Positions 2,617 to 24,165 of a DNA stretch of 64,000 nt are shown here, piece by piece. Below the pieces are notes generated by a model. It was not told the DNA's origin, made no database searches, and saw only the letters and a list, made by a program, of their open reading frames with translations. The first letter of the stretch is position 1, and the number at the start of each line of letters is the position of its first letter. The DNA comes from Saccharopolyspora shandongensis. Lineage in GTDB: Bacteria; Actinomycetota; Actinomycetes; Mycobacteriales; Pseudonocardiaceae. Position numbers and translations under genes: made by a program. The DNA is taken from NCBI RefSeq assembly GCF_900106995.1, contig NZ_FNOK01000001.1:1-64000 (forward strand), given 5' to 3'.

Positions 2617-3351
2617 ATGCCTCGCAATGCAGTGATCACCGGCGGTGGGACCGGGATCGGCCGCGCCGTCGCCTCCCGCCTGGTGGCCGCCGGCGATCAG
2701 GTCGTGCTACTCGGGCGGCGCCCCGAGAAGCTGGCCGACGCGGTCGCCGACCTCGGCCCCGACTCCCGGGCGGTGCCGGTCGACGCCACCGATCCGGCCG
2801 CCCTGCAGGCCGCGCTGGGCGAGCTCCCCGAGCGGGTCGACGTGCTGATCAACGCCGCCGGCGGGAACACCGATCTCGTCGACGGCGCCCCGGCCGCGGA
2901 CGACCTCAAGGCCGTTCGTGACTCGTGGTCCGCCAACTTCGAGGCGAACGTGCTCAGCGCCGTGCTGGTCACGCACGCCCTGCTGCCCCGGCTCGCCGAC
3001 GATGCCCGCATCGTCAACCTGGGCTCCGTCACCGCGCGATCCGGGCAGGGCAGCTACGGCGCCGTCAAGGCCACACTGGAGCCCTGGACGTCCGAACTGG
3101 CCTTCCAGCTCGGCTCCCGCGGCATCACCGCCAACGTCGTCTCCCCCGGCCCGACCGAAGGCACCGACTTCTTCCGCGGCGGCGACTTCCCCGCCGCGCG
3201 CCGGGAGTTCGTCTCCTCGCGGTCCGCCGACGGCCGGCTCGGCCGCGTCGAGGAGGTCGCCGCGCTCATCGCGTTCCTGGCCTCGGCCGAGGCCTCGCAC
3301 ATCACCGGTCAGGTCCTGCACGTCAGCGGCGGCATGCACCTCGGCCGGTGA
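2617..3351 (+). CDS. SDR-family NAD(P)-dependent oxidoreductase
   Basis: This 244-residue classical short-chain dehydrogenase has an N-terminal TGGGTGIGRA nucleotide-binding motif, an INAAGG segment for the NNAG motif, a Ser in NLGSVT, a YGAVK catalytic Tyr-Lys pair, and the usual C-terminal ASHITGQVLHVSGG. The start is fixed by AGGAGG at 2607-2612, four bases upstream of the ATG. The divergent MarR regulator and its operators imply induction by a small aromatic or toxic molecule. The substrate cannot be read from sequence. Confidence 0.9.
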   Translation: MPRNAVITGGGTGIGRAVASRLVAAGDQVVLLGRRPEKLADAVADLGPDSRAVPVDATDPAALQAALGELPERVDVLINAAGGNTDLVDGAPAADDLKAVRDSWSANFEANVLSAVLVTHALLPRLADDARIVNLGSVTARSGQGSYGAVKATLEPWTSELAFQLGSRGITANVVSPGPTEGTDFFRGGDFPAARREFVSSRSADGRLGRVEEVAALIAFLASAEASHITGQVLHVSGGMHLGR

Positions 3352-17773: not shown

Positions 17774-19327
17774 TCAGGCGCCCTGCCAGCCCGAGCCGCG
17801 GGCGGTCGTCACGTACTCCGGCCACGGGTAGTCGTGCGGCGCCTCGAAGTCCTTGGGCAGCAGCGCTTCCGGGGCGTCCGCGCTGCGTTCGTCGAACTCC
17901 GCCTTGGCCGCCGCCAGGACCTCCGGACTGCGGGCCAGGTCCAGGAGCGTTCCGGCGATCGTCTTGGCCGCGCAGATGATCGTCGGGTCGATGGTGGCCG
18001 GGATGCCGCCGAGGGCGTTCATCGCCCAGCTCGGCGTGGGGCGGCCGTCGATCGGGGCCAGCGCCGGGCGAGCGATGTAGAGGCGGGCCGTCGGGGCGTA
18101 GTGGGTCATCTCGACGTAGTCGTCGGACGTCCAGTTCCGTTGCGCGGGCGGGATGTTCTCGCGCAGCAGGCGTTCCGCCTCGGCCGGCTCGATCAGCTGG
18201 GCGCACTCGGCGAGCAGCGGGTTCTCGGTCGGCTCCACGCCGAGCGAGCGCTGTACCTCGCGCGCCACCTCGACCGCCTCCGGGCCGTACGCCGGCGGCC
18301 CGACCTGCGCCAGGTTCCGGTAGGTCACCTCCGCCATCGCGTGGTTGGCCAGGCCCGGCCGGTTCCGCGACACCCAGCGGGTTTCGAGGCTGCAGTGCGC
18401 CGTGCGGGCCGCGGCCTCCGCGTTCGCGTCGAGCACCCGCAGCACCTGCTCGGCCGTGGCGATGTCCGGGCAGCGCCAGGAGTACTGGATCTGGGCGATC
18501 CCCGCCGGGAGGTTGTCCGCGGTGGCGTTGCCCGCGCTCAGGATCGCCTCGGACAGCGACCAGCCGCCGAACGCCGGGGCCATCGAGTCCTGTGTGGACT
18601 TCGTCAGCGAGTACATCGTCATCAGCGCGGCGTTCGCGCCGGGCGCGCGGGCCGCCGAGTGGGACGCCGGGATCGGGCTGCCCGGATCGGCGACGCCCCA
18701 GGTTTCCGGTTCGTCGCAGCGGAAGCTGTAGATGCGGCTGTAGTACGCGCCGCAGTGCGTGTCCCACCGGACCGTGTTGCACAGCGGCAGCATGTAGAAC
18801 GGGTGGAAGCTGATGATCGCGTCCACGTCGTCGTAGTAGCCGCGCAGCCCGTGCACGACCTTGGAGCCCTGCACCTTCTCCGCCGGTTCTCCGGTGTAGC
18901 GGATCGTGCCGCCGATCCCGTTGCGCTGCATCGCTTCCTTCGCCGCCAGGACGGCTCCCAGGGTGCTGATGCCCAACGCCGAGTGCGGGTCGGTGTGCCC
19001 AGGCGCGTGCGGGCTGACGCCGGACCGCGGCCCGGGGCGCGGCGTGCCGGCTTGGCAGTTGCCCGGCACCGCGTCGTACTCGGCGTAGGTCAGCAGTGTC
19101 GGGCCGGGGCCGTTGCTCCAGGTCGCGGAGAACGCCGTGGGCATTCCGCCGCTGCCTTCCTCGACCTCGAAGCCCTCGCTCCGCAGCAGGTCCACGTACC
19201 AGGCCGCCGAGCGGTACTCCCGCCACGCGGGCTCGGCCAGCTCCCAGATCCGGCCGTGCCACTCGGACAACCGGGACCGGTTGCGGTCCACCCAATTCCA
19301 CGCGGCCGTTTTCGCGGTGTCGCTCAT
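17774..19327 (-). CDS. M20-family amidohydrolase (AbgB-like)
   Basis: This 517-residue zinc peptidase/amidohydrolase of the M20D type has TYAEYDAVPGN, HAPGHTDPHSALG, TGEPAEKVQGSK and ISFHPF, which cover the usual metal-ligand and lid regions. Length and blocks resemble AbgB-like aminoacyl-glutamate hydrolases more than CPG2. It overlaps the upstream YtcJ-type amidohydrolase by ATGA and is the last gene of an operon with an MHS transporter. The operon therefore looks like uptake plus two successive amide or cyclic-amide hydrolyses. The substrate is unknown. Confidence 0.85.
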   Translation of the reverse strand: MSDTAKTAAWNWVDRNRSRLSEWHGRIWELAEPAWREYRSAAWYVDLLRSEGFEVEEGSGGMPTAFSATWSNGPGPTLLTYAEYDAVPGNCQAGTPRPGPRSGVSPHAPGHTDPHSALGISTLGAVLAAKEAMQRNGIGGTIRYTGEPAEKVQGSKVVHGLRGYYDDVDAIISFHPFYMLPLCNTVRWDTHCGAYYSRIYSFRCDEPETWGVADPGSPIPASHSAARAPGANAALMTMYSLTKSTQDSMAPAFGGWSLSEAILSAGNATADNLPAGIAQIQYSWRCPDIATAEQVLRVLDANAEAAARTAHCSLETRWVSRNRPGLANHAMAEVTYRNLAQVGPPAYGPEAVEVAREVQRSLGVEPTENPLLAECAQLIEPAEAERLLRENIPPAQRNWTSDDYVEMTHYAPTARLYIARPALAPIDGRPTPSWAMNALGGIPATIDPTIICAAKTIAGTLLDLARSPEVLAAAKAEFDERSADAPEALLPKDFEAPHDYPWPEYVTTARGSGWQGA

Positions 19328-20937
19328 GCCCGGTACGCCACCTCTCCGTCGAGGATCGTGCAGTGCGCGTCGACCTTCCGCAGGTCCTCGTCCGCCGTGG
19401 TGCGCAGGTCGTGGTCGAGCACCACGAGGTCGGCGAGCTTGCCCGGCGCGAGCGAACCGAGCCGGTCCTCCATCCGCAGGGCGTAGGCGGCGTCGAGGGT
19501 GTGCGCGCGCAGCGCCTCGTCCAGGCTCATCGCCTGCGCGGCGCCGATCTCACCGCCCTCCCGGGTGCGGCGGCACACCGCGTTGGCGATGGTCTCCATC
19601 GGACGCAGGCTGGAGACGAACGAATCGCTGGAGAGCACCGGCACCACGCCGGCGTCCAGCTCCTCCCGGATGGGCTGCAGCCGGTGCGCGCGCTCGGGGC
19701 CGAGGCGGCGCACGAAGTCGGTGCCGCTGTCGTAGAGGAAGTTCGGCTGGTTCACCGCCACCGCGCCGAGATCGGCGAGCATCCGCACCTGCTCCCGGGT
19801 CGGGTAGCCGCAGTGTTCGATGCGCGGCCGCGGGTCGTCGCCGGCCACCCGCACGGCCTCGACGAGCCCGTCGATGGTGTTCTGCATCGCGAGGTCGCCC
19901 TGCGTGTGCACCGCGACCTGCCAGCCCGCCTCCGACGCCCGGCGCAGCAGGTCGGTGAGCTGCTCCGGCTGCCAGTACGAGCTGCCGGTGAACTCGCCGC
20001 GCTCCCCGTACGGCTCGCGGAACAGCGCGGTGCCGCCGAGCAGGCTGCCGTCGGAGTAGAACTTCATCGCCCCGAGCCGCAGCCAGTCGTCGCCGAACGG
20101 GCCCGCGAGGCCGAGCGCGGTGAGCCCGTCGAGCTGGTGCGACAGCGGCATGCAGACGGTGCGCAGCGGCAGCGCGCCCGCGGCCTTCGCCGCCCGGTAG
20201 ACCAGCATCTCGCGCCGCGACACCTGCGGGTCGCACACCGTGGTGACGCCGGCGGACAGGTAGCTGTCGCGGGCGTCGGCGAGCCAGCCGAGCAGCTGCT
20301 CGTGCGGCAGGTCGGTGTGGAAGTTGGGGCCGTGGCAGCCGATGTCGGCGGCCAGCGGCAGCAGCAGCTCCATCGCGGTGTCCAGCACCATCCCGGTCAG
20401 CCGGCCGCCCTCGTCGCGGACGAACGCGCCGCCCGCCGGGTCGGCCACGTCGGTGGCGATGCCGCGCCACTTCAGCGCGGCGCTGTTGACGACCGCCTGG
20501 TGGCCGGAGACGTGGTAGATGATCACCGGGTGCTCGCCGGTCGCCTCGTCCAGCTGGGCCCGGGTGACCCGGCCCTCCGGGTACTTCGCGTCGTCCATGC
20601 CGAACGCCCGGATCCACTGGCCCGCCGGGGCGCTCGCGGCAGCCTTCGCGATAGCCGCCACCAGGTCGGCCGCGCTGGACACCCCGGGGCTGCGCACGTT
20701 CACCGCGGCCAGCGACTCCGCGGTGGACAGCAGGTGGTTGTGCGGGTCGATGAACCCGGGCACCACGGTCCGGCCGCCGGCGTCTAACTCGACCGCGCCG
20801 GGACCCGCCGCGGCGCGGACCTCGGATTCCGCGCCGCAGAGCAGGATCTTGCCGTCGCGGATGGCAACGGCCTCCGCGCGCGGCCGGCGCTCGTCCACGG
20901 TGCGGACGTCGGCGTGCGTGATGACCAAAGTGGACAC
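19324..20937 (-). CDS. Amidohydrolase superfamily protein, YtcJ-like
   Basis: This 537-residue metal-dependent hydrolase has the amidohydrolase_3 layout: an N-terminal beta-sandwich ending in VVPGFIDPHNHLL (metal HxH), AVHTQGDLAMQNTI, PRIEHCGYPT and VLSSDSFVSS, with a C-terminal LGSLAPGKLADLVVLD. The start is the GTG at 20937 after AAAGG. The long in-frame run upstream crosses the structured element and is not coding. The M20 gene follows with a 4-nt overlap; an unusual nested-hairpin element lies immediately upstream (21002-21138). Confidence 0.87.
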   Translation of the reverse strand: MSTLVITHADVRTVDERRPRAEAVAIRDGKILLCGAESEVRAAAGPGAVELDAGGRTVVPGFIDPHNHLLSTAESLAAVNVRSPGVSSAADLVAAIAKAAASAPAGQWIRAFGMDDAKYPEGRVTRAQLDEATGEHPVIIYHVSGHQAVVNSAALKWRGIATDVADPAGGAFVRDEGGRLTGMVLDTAMELLLPLAADIGCHGPNFHTDLPHEQLLGWLADARDSYLSAGVTTVCDPQVSRREMLVYRAAKAAGALPLRTVCMPLSHQLDGLTALGLAGPFGDDWLRLGAMKFYSDGSLLGGTALFREPYGERGEFTGSSYWQPEQLTDLLRRASEAGWQVAVHTQGDLAMQNTIDGLVEAVRVAGDDPRPRIEHCGYPTREQVRMLADLGAVAVNQPNFLYDSGTDFVRRLGPERAHRLQPIREELDAGVVPVLSSDSFVSSLRPMETIANAVCRRTREGGEIGAAQAMSLDEALRAHTLDAAYALRMEDRLGSLAPGKLADLVVLDHDLRTTADEDLRKVDAHCTILDGEVAYRA

Positions 20938-21001
20938 GGCTGACCTTTCGAATCGTTCGGAAGAGACCCGTTTTCGAGCTTGAATTGAATCTTTGGCCTT
21001 G

Positions 21002-21138
21002 AAGCGGCGCAGCCGCTTAGCCCACCTACGACGCTTGCACCGCCGCGGGTTCTCAGACGTCGCCTGGCGAGGACAGCCCCGATGCCGCGTATTGGACATA
21101 CGTAAGTCGGGGCTCCCACAGACCAGGCGGCGTCTGAG
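21002..21138. other. Nested inverted-repeat element (candidate structured RNA or dispersed repeat)
   Basis: A small hairpin (AAGCGGC 21002-21008 / GCCGCTT 21012-21018) is followed by a large one. CTCAGACGTCGCCTGG (21052-21067) pairs with CCAGGCGGCGTCTGAG (21123-21138), with one mismatch. Inside it AGCCCCGA (21075-21082) pairs with TCGGGGCT (21107-21114), and within that CGTAT (21088-21092) with ATACG (21098-21102). GCGG/CCGC extends the outer stem across a symmetric internal loop. It sits between the MHS transporter stop and the amidohydrolase start. It could be an attenuating leader, a terminator or a mobile palindromic repeat. Confidence 0.6.
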
Positions 21139-21185
21139 GTTCCGCCACCCGCACCGCCACGCAAAACGAGCCTGGAAACAGGCCG

Positions 21186-22493
21186 TCAGGCGCGCTGGGC
21201 GATGGCGGCGGGTTCGTCGTCGACCTGCTTCGCCTTGGCCGTGCAGGCGATCGCGACCAGGCACATCGCCACCAGCAGCACCACCACCGGGATCGGCGTG
21301 CCGAACGCCGCCAGCAGCGCGGTGCAGGCGATCGGCGCCAGGCCGCCGAAGATCGCCCCGGCGATCTGGTACGACAGCGAGATGCCGGTGTAGCGGACGC
21401 GTGGCTCGAACATCTCCGCCATGATCTTGGGCAGCGGGCCGTAGGTGCCGGACATGCCGAGACGCATCACCAGCAGCAGCACGACGATCAGCGCGACGTT
21501 CCCGCTGGGCACCACCAGGAACTGCGGCGCGGCCAGCACGGCCACCGCGATCAGCCCGCCGATCACGATCCGCCGGGCGCCGACGCGGTCGCCGAACCAG
21601 GAGGTGATCAGCGTCGCGACGATCTCCAGGAACGCCGCCGCGCTCAGCGCGTTGAGCATCACCGTCTCGGACACGCCGATCTCCGGCGTGGTGGCGTAGG
21701 CGAGCAGGAACGTCGTGACGATGTAGTAGCCGCCGACGGCGACCGGCAGCGCGCCGATGCCCATCAGCACCGACCGCCACGAGGTCCGCAGCACCTCCTT
21801 GACCGGCGCCTCGTTCGAGGTGTCCTGTTCCCGCAGGGCCTCGGCGAACACCGGGGACTCCTCCACCCGCAGCCGGATCACCAGCCCCACCAGCACCAGC
21901 ACCGCCGACGCGAGGAACGGGATCCGCCACGCCCAGCTCAGCAGCGCCTCCTCACCGAAGGCCGACACGATGCTGAACGCGCCGGTGGCCAGCAGCGCCC
22001 CGGCGGAGTTGCCGATCTGCGGGAAGGAACCGAAGAAGGTCTTGCGGTGCTCCGGTGCGTGCTCGACCGCGATCAGCGCCGCGCCGCCCCACTCGCCGCC
22101 GACCGCGAGGCCCTGGATGAACCGCAGCACCACGAGCGCGATCGGCGCGAACGGCCCGATGGTGTCGTAGGTGGGCATCAGGCCCACCAGGAACGTCACC
22201 GAGCCCATGATCAACAGTGTGGTGACCAGCGCGGACTTGCGGCCGACCCGGTCACCGAAGTGCCCGAACACGATGCCGCCGAGCGGCCGGGCGAAGAACC
22301 CGACGGCCAGCACCGCGAACGAGGCCATCATGCCCACGAACGGGTCGGCGTCGGTCGGGAAGAACAGCTTGCCGAGAACCAGCGAGGCTGCCGTGGCGTA
22401 GACGTAGAAGTCGTACCACTCGATGGTCGTGCCCACGAACGATGCGAACGCGGCCCGGACGGCCATTCGCGGTGAAGCGGTCGAATCGCTCAT
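21186..22493 (-). CDS. MFS transporter, metabolite:proton symporter (MHS/ProP-ShiA-like)
   Basis: This 435-residue 12-TM transporter has FASFVGTTIEWYDFYVYATAASLVLGKLFFP and GHFGDRVGRKSALV, the signature blocks of the MHS family of proton-coupled uptake of organic acids, amino acids or osmolytes. GGAGGA precedes the ATG at 22493. It is first in an operon with two amidohydrolases and is divergent from PucR. The structured element lies in the 248-nt gap after it. Confidence 0.9.
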   Translation of the reverse strand: MSDSTASPRMAVRAAFASFVGTTIEWYDFYVYATAASLVLGKLFFPTDADPFVGMMASFAVLAVGFFARPLGGIVFGHFGDRVGRKSALVTTLLIMGSVTFLVGLMPTYDTIGPFAPIALVVLRFIQGLAVGGEWGGAALIAVEHAPEHRKTFFGSFPQIGNSAGALLATGAFSIVSAFGEEALLSWAWRIPFLASAVLVLVGLVIRLRVEESPVFAEALREQDTSNEAPVKEVLRTSWRSVLMGIGALPVAVGGYYIVTTFLLAYATTPEIGVSETVMLNALSAAAFLEIVATLITSWFGDRVGARRIVIGGLIAVAVLAAPQFLVVPSGNVALIVVLLLVMRLGMSGTYGPLPKIMAEMFEPRVRYTGISLSYQIAGAIFGGLAPIACTALLAAFGTPIPVVVLLVAMCLVAIACTAKAKQVDDEPAAIAQRA

Positions 22494-22614: not shown

Positions 22615-24165
22615 ATGGCGCTGCGGATGGCGGATGTGCTGGGCCTGCCGGGACTCGACCTGCGCCTGCTGGCCGGGGCGGGCGGGCTGCATCGGGAGGT
22701 GCGCTGGGCGCACGTCATCGAGCTGACCGACCCGGTGCCGTGGCTGCGCGGCGCCGAGCTCGTGCTGACCGTCGGGCTCGGCCTGCCGGACGACCCGCGG
22801 GGCCAGCGCGACTACGTGCGGCGGCTGGCCGACGCGGGGTGCGCGGGCCTCGGCTTCCCGCCCGGCGAGATCCGCACGGAACTGCCGCCCGCGGTCCTGG
22901 AGGCCGCCGACGAATGCGACTTCCCGGTGGTGGCGGCCATCGAGAGCACGCCGTTCATCGCGATCACCGAGGCCGTCGCCCAGTGGTACGCCGACCACCG
23001 ATCCCACCAGGAGCGGCAGGCGCTCAAGGCGCAGGACGCGATGGCGCGGGCGGCGCTGCGCTCCGGGCCCGCCGGGATCGTGCGCGAGCTCGCCGCCGGC
23101 ACCGGCGGCGAGGTGCTGCTGCTCGACTCGGCCGGTCACATGCGCGCGGCGGAGCCGCCGGAGCGTCGCGACTGGCACGAGGCGGTGCGCGCGGCCGTGC
23201 GGCGCGACACGCGCGGAGCGCTCGGAACGACCTTCGGCGACCGGGAGATCCACGTGGCGAGCACCGGCATCTCGGGCAGCCCGAGCGGCTGGCTCGCGGT
23301 GGCGTCCGCGCCGCCGGTCGCCGCGCACGTGCGGATCCTCGCCAACCACGCGGCCAACCTCGTCGGCGTCGGCGTCGAAGGCGTTCGCTCGGCGCGCGCG
23401 AAGACCCACCAGCAGCGCGCCGCGATCTTCGCCGCCGCGCTGGAGGAGAACTCGGCGACGCTCTGGGACCGGCTGGAGGACGCCTGTCCCCTGCCGCCCC
23501 CGCCCTACGAAGTGGTGGCGCTGCGCGCCGAGGGCGCCGAGCCGCCGAAGCTGGCGCGCATCGTGCTGGACACCCTCGCCGAGGTCATCGACGACACGTC
23601 GCTGGAGGAACGGCTGGTGGTCTGCCCGCTGCCGGAAGCGCTGGTCGCCGTCCTCCCCGACGCGAACCCCAAGGCCGGCCGAGCGCTGGCCGAGCGGCTG
23701 AACGCGCGGGCCGGGCAGGTTCGCGCGGGCGCAGCGACCGCCCGGGACCGAACCGAGCTGCCCGCGACGATCTTCCGTGCCACGACTGCGCTTTCCCGCG
23801 CCGAAGGCACCTACCGGCACGCCGACGAGCTCGCCGCTAGCGCCCTGTTCCAAGGGGTCTTCGACGGACCGGCGGTGGAACGCTTCGTCGACTCGGCTCT
23901 GGAACCGCTGCGCCGCCAGGACGAGCGCCGCCGGACGGGAACCCCGAGCCTCGTGGAATGCGTGCGGACGTTCCTGGACGAGGGCCAGAACCTGGAGGCG
24001 GCGGCGCGAAAGCTCGACATCCACCGCAACACGCTGCGCTCCCGCCTGCGCACCGCCGAGCGCGTCACGAACCGCTCCCTCGACCAACCCCAGGACCGCC
24101 TGGAACTCTGGCTCGCGACCACTCTGGAGCGTCCGGACACAACGGCCGATTACCGCCAGACCTGA
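22615..24165 (+). CDS. PucR-family transcriptional regulator
   Basis: This 516-residue regulator has an N-terminal PucR/purine-catabolism-type domain (ADVLGLPGLDLRLLAGAGGLHREVRWAHVIELTDPVPWLRGAELVLTVG), a central GGDEF-like CdaR region and a C-terminal HTH_30 (VRTFLDEGQNLEAAARKLDIHRNTLRSRLRTAERV). It is divergent from the transporter/amidohydrolase operon and most likely activates it in response to its substrate. PucR relatives commonly control purine, allantoin or other nitrogen-compound catabolism. Confidence 0.9.
   Translation: MALRMADVLGLPGLDLRLLAGAGGLHREVRWAHVIELTDPVPWLRGAELVLTVGLGLPDDPRGQRDYVRRLADAGCAGLGFPPGEIRTELPPAVLEAADECDFPVVAAIESTPFIAITEAVAQWYADHRSHQERQALKAQDAMARAALRSGPAGIVRELAAGTGGEVLLLDSAGHMRAAEPPERRDWHEAVRAAVRRDTRGALGTTFGDREIHVASTGISGSPSGWLAVASAPPVAAHVRILANHAANLVGVGVEGVRSARAKTHQQRAAIFAAALEENSATLWDRLEDACPLPPPPYEVVALRAEGAEPPKLARIVLDTLAEVIDDTSLEERLVVCPLPEALVAVLPDANPKAGRALAERLNARAGQVRAGAATARDRTELPATIFRATTALSRAEGTYRHADELAASALFQGVFDGPAVERFVDSALEPLRRQDERRRTGTPSLVECVRTFLDEGQNLEAAARKLDIHRNTLRSRLRTAERVTNRSLDQPQDRLELWLATTLERPDTTADYRQT

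Follow-up and report, generated by a model that had tools for sequence, protein, structure and literature searches.

A folded repeat of the Pseudonocardiaceae, abundant in Saccharopolyspora and lying mainly behind stop codons, is probably a non-autonomous mobile element

The first 64,000 nucleotides of contig NZ_FNOK01000001.1 of Saccharopolyspora shandongensis (referred to as the window in the rest of the text) contain a large nested inverted repeat within an operon. An initial annotation, made from the letters alone, placed it at 21002-21138 and offered three readings: a differential-expression element, a cis-regulatory RNA or a palindromic dispersed repeat. Which of these is it, and why does it lie directly behind a gene? 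The nested repeat proved real, its arms at 21045-21067 and 21123-21145 being 83% complementary, but it is only part of the full element, which consists of a 175-nt structured core (21002-21176, + strand) within an insert of about 222 nt (20964-21185, +), the stretch missing in S. elongata, which has 7 other bases there. The + strand of 20985-21180 folded at −90.5 kcal/mol compared to a shuffle mean of −70.5 kcal/mol (z = −4.5; none of 200 shuffles as stable), a difference that, together with the genome copies and the covariation presented below, rules out a chance hairpin. R1, a covariance model built from 40 copies, matched the + strand at 21002-21176 from end to end (model positions 1-175; 209 bits, cmsearch), and its sole other match in the window was the antisense of the same place, so that the window contains this one copy. 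Some reading frames stay open in the insert, as is common at such G+C content.

The core begins with a conserved 5′ hairpin (21002-21018, +; AAGCGGCG..CGCTT), already noticed in the initial annotation as a separate small hairpin, in which 6 of 7 pairs changed on both sides across genera. The main-stem base (21045-21152, +) is nearly invariant; in the RNAalifold consensus and pair table, GCGGGT (21045-21050) pairs with ACCCGC (21147-21152), and an alternative GCGG/CCGC pairing is possible. The symmetric GTT/GTT internal loop described earlier is one of two possible pairings at this point, the columns varying too little to favour either. Above the base, the main stem, formerly called the outer stem (21051-21139, +; 21051-21068 with 21121-21139), had 14 of 18 pairs changed on both sides across genera. 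The single mismatch reported in its 16 bp, T21060/G21130, is present, but is a G-U wobble on the + strand and recurs in many copies; hence it is a weak argument for selection or recent mobility, for which it had been taken. Between main and upper stem lies a conserved internal loop (21069-21120, +; GAGGACAGC on one side, ATCCC..AG on the other) with near-invariant columns in an alignment of 63 sequences. In the upper stem (21077-21112, +; 21077-21083 with 21106-21112), all 7 pairs had changed on both sides but just 88.7% of cells were paired; in the apical hairpin GCGTAT TGGAC ATACGT (21087-21103, +), 4 of 6 pairs had changed on both sides.

The reading as a dispersed palindromic repeat was borne out: further copies and covariation, the absence of both of which would have spoken against the annotation, were both found, along with signs of recent mobility. 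A differential-expression element or a cis-regulatory RNA gained no such backing, the signs of a terminator being weak and inconsistent. When the genome to which the window belongs (10.15 Mb in 134 contigs) was searched with a 196-nt query, the best 40 of 374 candidates were scored and had E-values from 5e-98 to 4e-50. R1 matched at least 150 copies there, all 150 scored candidates lying at E ≤ 2.6e-19. When 20 stretches of 20 kb were sampled from each genome, 7 copies (one cut by a stretch edge) were counted at E ≤ 1e-6 in the own genome and 17 in its congener G001, which extrapolates, with wide error, to totals of about 180 and about 350. Within the genus, 21 of 22 genomes matched, counting the own one; in a family sample with the best 5 candidates scored per genome, 40 of 150 genomes in 13 of 46 genera did. 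The relatives compared include S. elongata (G004), S. kobensis (G012) and S. spinosa (G020), of the same GTDB genus as the window, as well as genomes labelled Saccharopolyspora sp. HNM0986 (G066) and Halosaccharopolyspora lacisalsi (G026); G033 we take to be S. erythraea NRRL 2338. Of 150 genomes sampled from the order, the 8 that matched were all Pseudonocardiaceae, and of 197 sampled from the class, the own genome alone matched. Restriction to this family is provisional, since the order and class searches scored only the best 14-18 candidates per genome under strict filters.

No known family or vehicle accounted for the element. At curated scores, no Rfam family was found in the window, group II intron domains included, and the 20930-21220 region gave chance-level matches only (E = 1.9 and 4.5), so that a known Rfam family was rejected; across 8 loci, Rfam returned nothing except a tRNA. 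A plasmid origin was dropped for lack of any blastn match at 1e-5 among 72,556 plasmid records, and a phage origin after the exact core pattern gave 0 matches in viral contigs. Searches of open-licence PMC papers turned up no description of a repeat of this kind for Saccharopolyspora or Pseudonocardiaceae, and the family is apparently undescribed so far.

Covariation indicates that what is conserved in the core is the fold of a single strand. In a MAFFT alignment of 41 copies from the own genome, 97.6% of cells were paired and 15 of 48 pairs had changed on both sides; 0 of 500 shuffles reached the covariation score and 3 of 500 the pair number. Across genera (43 of the 44 sources given, aligned by fitting to the model), 34 of 50 pairs had changed on both sides with 94.6% of cells paired, and 0 of 500 shuffles equalled the alignment on any of five measures. 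An alignment made without reference to structure, comprising 41 of the 52 cross-genome cores at hand (mean identity 0.71), gave 18 of 36 pairs changed on both sides for the + strand, compared to 5-6 with partners slid, and 13 of 31 for the − strand, compared to 2-8. It is most likely the + strand that folds, the one opposite to the gene that ends beside the element's right end, because G-T cells exceed A-C cells (227 versus 42; 77 versus 40 without three nearly fixed G-T pairs) and because the extended hairpin was more stable on the + than on the − strand in 58 of 62 sequences.

Copies tend to lie behind stop codons. At the relatives' loci, the right end faced the stop codon of an opposite-strand gene in 50 of 51 cases, with the stop codon no more than 20 nt from the core end in 43 of 51 (median 10), a sample biased by its being the best blastn matches to the window copy. 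In the unbiased sample of G001, 11 of 14 copies lay at an opposite-strand stop codon, 10 of them within 20 nt (the 14 remain from 17 copies at E ≤ 1e-6 after exclusion of one at a stretch edge and two partial ones); in a wider set of 27 (28 weaker and stronger matches minus one), the right-hand gene was on the opposite strand in 20, on the same strand in 6 and missing in 1. Placement in the own genome was looser: among 85 copies, which are part of those listed by searches or fetched beside them, 56 faced a stop codon, 27 a gene start and 2 no called gene. Genes were called throughout by a simple GC-position script. Two subfamilies differed among these 56, type-A copies lying at a median of 10 nt from the stop codon (23 of 28 within 20 nt) and subfamily B copies at 37.5 nt (0 of 28). 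The left-hand gene had either orientation. Adjoining genes were mostly metabolic and transport genes of diverse families, and no shared theme was evident among 27 right-end genes scanned with Pfam, 24 of which matched. Several genomes also have elements after thiD, thiC or an NMT1/THI5-like gene (L050, L070, L058, L141, L142, L143, L150), so a leaning to thiamine genes (thiC in five genomes, thiD, NMT1-like) is possible.

In the window, the adjoining stop codon, 9 nt from the core end, belongs to an MFS/MHS-type transporter gene (21186-22466, −; Pfam PF00083, PF07690). The element was originally said to split an MHS transporter from two amidohydrolases. Pfam upheld the transporter and the next gene of the operon as an amidohydrolase (19324-20937, −; PF07969); the supposed second one (17774-19327, −) had no Pfam match at 1e-5. 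A PucR-type regulator gene lies at 22615-24165, divergent from the transporter-amidohydrolase operon, and this neighbour suggests purine or amide catabolism for the operon.

Recent insertion was seen in subfamily B, to which a sequence rule assigned 36 of the 85 own copies. Its ends form an inverted repeat, GAGSGTTTTTC...GAAAAACCTC, and identity between copies from different loci reaches 99.4%. A 3-bp duplication (ATT or AAT on both sides) bordered 9 of 12 inspected B copies and was often centred in a TTTCAATTGAAA palindrome. Of six B sites searched for in the genus, three (L046, L038 and L041) were empty in S. elongata; compared with the empty site, L046 and L041 showed a clean 3-bp duplication, and L038 had an altered right end. 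At the other sites, L026 was occupied in both species, L016 was without orthologue and the counterparts of L020 were not clean. No mobilising enzyme or autonomous copy was found among the ends inspected: all 40 listed left ends (the best 40 of 181 candidates) carried a core, and 13 right ends fetched that had no listed core revealed no autonomous B element either.

Other observations were made around these copies. The left flank of L046 holds a second dispersed repeat of about 110-125 nt (query 402-525), with a hairpin CTCCGGCGTGTCGG..CACGACACGCCGGAG between TTTCAATTGAAA-type palindromes, which matched many places in at least G000, G001, G004, G007, G008, G010, G012, G014 and G020; its palindromes serve as insertion sites for B elements. 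Deletion derivatives of B exist about position 3000 (L290 and L297), L290 being about 65 nt with little beyond the two ends and L297 lacking most of the core. The apical part of one copy is interrupted by an IS630-like insertion, named by eye, at which contigs break (L288 at the end of G000:C6, L192 at the start of G000:C94). In S. elongata, L284 (G004:C10) differs from L026 by the swap of one main-stem arm for a longer unrelated stretch; the same may hold for several own copies that are about 190 nt long.

The window copy is likewise absent from the same operon of S. elongata. There, G004:C191 matched query positions 1-864 (97% identity) and 1087-2199 (96%), with 7 bases between compared to 222 in the window. 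As these 7 bases are absent from the window, this pair by itself fits an insertion in the window's genome as well as a loss or replacement in S. elongata. The window copy had no clear terminal repeats or target duplication. Type-A copies as a group, the window copy among them, showed neither feature above chance; target duplications of at least 8 nt bordered 7 of 45 copies in the own genome and 3 of 45 others, about 10% being expected. Direct repeats of 11, 12 and 9 nt, longer than the 3 bp of B, flank type-A copies L015, L181 and L064, respectively; they could reflect chance or another insertion mode.

Some positions are old. The gap-pgk junction, its genes confirmed by Pfam, carries full-length model matches in another genus (G034) and in the congener G021, and an element remnant in the window's genome. 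Among 30 orthologous thiC loci, R1 found a copy in 4 (G000, G017, G066, G098), to which inspection by eye added a copy in S. spinosa (L058) and a remnant in G055. G066 and G098, which belong to one genus, have identical thiC copies. Otherwise, whether compared between genera or between the own genome and S. spinosa, thiC copies were less alike than copies elsewhere (identity 0.75 for own versus S. spinosa and 0.69 for own versus G066, compared to 0.88, 0.87 and 0.88 for nearest neighbours at other loci), a pattern that, in this small sample, fits turnover at favoured sites or gene conversion.

We consider it likely that the repeat at 21002-21176 belongs to a family of non-autonomous mobile elements of Pseudonocardiaceae, which is abundant in Saccharopolyspora, has a folded core and is kept mainly behind stop codons. 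The family would be copied in trans, as DNA, by some enzyme needing the fold, and the insertions found in the stop-adjacent place and orientation would be those tolerated or kept, gene-harming ones having been lost; the looser placement in the own genome would fit such selection after insertion. On the mRNA of the upstream gene, a copy would form a long stem-loop about 10 nt past the stop codon, and by analogy this could act like the REP sequences of E. coli and affect translation. Against this explanation count the 27 of 85 own copies that lie at a gene start rather than a stop codon, and the old gap-pgk positions in two genera, because mere recent mobility does not predict them. The lack of clear terminal repeats or a target duplication at the window copy, and the search for an autonomous copy or mobilising enzyme that found none, speak against it as well.

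Known systems resemble the family in part. The element behaves like a miniature non-autonomous element. MITEs are non-autonomous miniature inverted-repeat elements, and the bacterial ones are likewise short and present in many copies; subfamily B adds inverted-repeat ends, a 3-bp duplication and empty sites, and is the only part of the family with the terminal inverted repeats of a MITE. Unlike MITEs, the family has a long covarying core that folds on one strand and is common to subfamilies with different ends, as well as the stop-codon placement; no parent transposon was found, and the window subtype is without clear ends or duplication. The bcr1 repeats of the Bacillus cereus group and ERIC of enterobacteria are mobile repeats of intergenic regions, roughly 130-160 bp long and predicted to have a conserved fold; compared by description, they share these traits with our element but belong to an unrelated lineage, and we know of no stop-codon rule for them. 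TRIT, reportedly named in the RNIE study as a mycobacterial terminator-like motif, is also a conserved hairpin behind many genes of one actinobacterial lineage; it is much smaller and, to our knowledge, not known as mobile, and the terminator signal of our element, by contrast, is weak in copies of the own genome and missing from those of relatives. REP, BIME and REPIN sequences are, similarly, dispersed palindromes behind genes, and in E. coli some REPs lie within 15 nt of stop codons (PMC12306157), but they differ in size and enzyme, as set out below.

Position behind a gene, and a folded strand fixed relative to that gene, are also the anatomy of attC sites. An integron-like recombination site behind each gene is nonetheless scarcely credible: copies are dispersed, some behind core genes (thiC, gap), and 6 of 6 copies examined had no RYYYAAC or GTTRRRY box on either strand, so the class was rejected. 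Almost as implausible is a REP/REPIN element moved by a RAYT (Y1) transposase, despite the dispersed, palindromic, gene-trailing arrangement and the strand-specific fold. Y1_Tnp occurred in 13 of 40 element-bearing genomes compared to 18 of 110 others, but 27 of the 40 had no match to it (PF01797) at 1e-6, and the 175-nt core compares with 20-40 bp for REPs (PMC3733652); with the enzyme not required and the size discordant, this class was rejected as well. A family of small RNA genes, in which the + strand would be transcribed as a discrete RNA antisense to gene ends, is improbable. It would agree with the + strand fold, and PMC3610266, an RNA-seq study of S. erythraea, describes 190 intergenic RNAs and an enrichment of antisense transcription at the 3′ ends of genes, with no link to the element. 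Window positions 20900-21300 contain no promoter of the sigma-70-like type, the only type covered, and the left flank, where a promoter would be expected, is not conserved.

A more serious, though still unlikely, competitor is a host-selected 3′ UTR module of RNA that would end, stabilise or down-regulate the mRNA of the preceding gene, its copies being kept by their benefit. In relatives, copies follow the stop codon at a steady distance (no more than 20 nt in 43 of 51); this, the conservation of fold and loops across genera and the copies behind thiC and gap in two genera all favour it. According to PMC12306157, E. coli REPs less than 16 nt from the stop codon down-regulate translation, which also favours it. 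Beside the stop codon, the window tail forms a small hairpin followed by CGTTTTGCG on the gene's strand (21169-21184, −), the single terminator-like match (0.4 expected). A tail hairpin followed by T occurred in 26 of 40 own copies, where 100 shuffles averaged 18.8 and reached 26 at most, a mild excess, but in 18 of 51 copies from relatives compared to 22.0, no excess; the copies are related and these counts hence not independent. The evidence for an intrinsic terminator role of the tail is thus mixed, and the tail hairpin is not a general feature. Also against such a module stand the best-folding strand, which is antisense to that mRNA, and the patchy presence (R1 in 4 of 30 thiC loci, the window copy missing in S. 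elongata). The module and the mobile-element reading are not mutually exclusive. Rather less probable than the module, though ahead of the small RNA genes, is a new mobility system directed at gene 3′ ends, of which the conserved fold would be a working part: an enzyme would recognise the folded + strand, as RNA or single-stranded DNA, and set it directly behind stop codons in one orientation, thereby sparing coding sequence. Where one gene carries a copy in several genera, separate insertions and not inheritance would then be the cause.

If the explanation as a non-autonomous mobile element is right, actinomycetes of industrial use, S. spinosa among them, contain an abundant structured element that has been overlooked and whose position could let it shape the 3′ ends of more than a hundred genes by a wide margin. 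Two close species share an operon that has the element in one and lacks it in the other, which provides a natural experiment. The placement behind stop codons makes it testable how a mobile element spares coding sequence, by aiming or by later selection.
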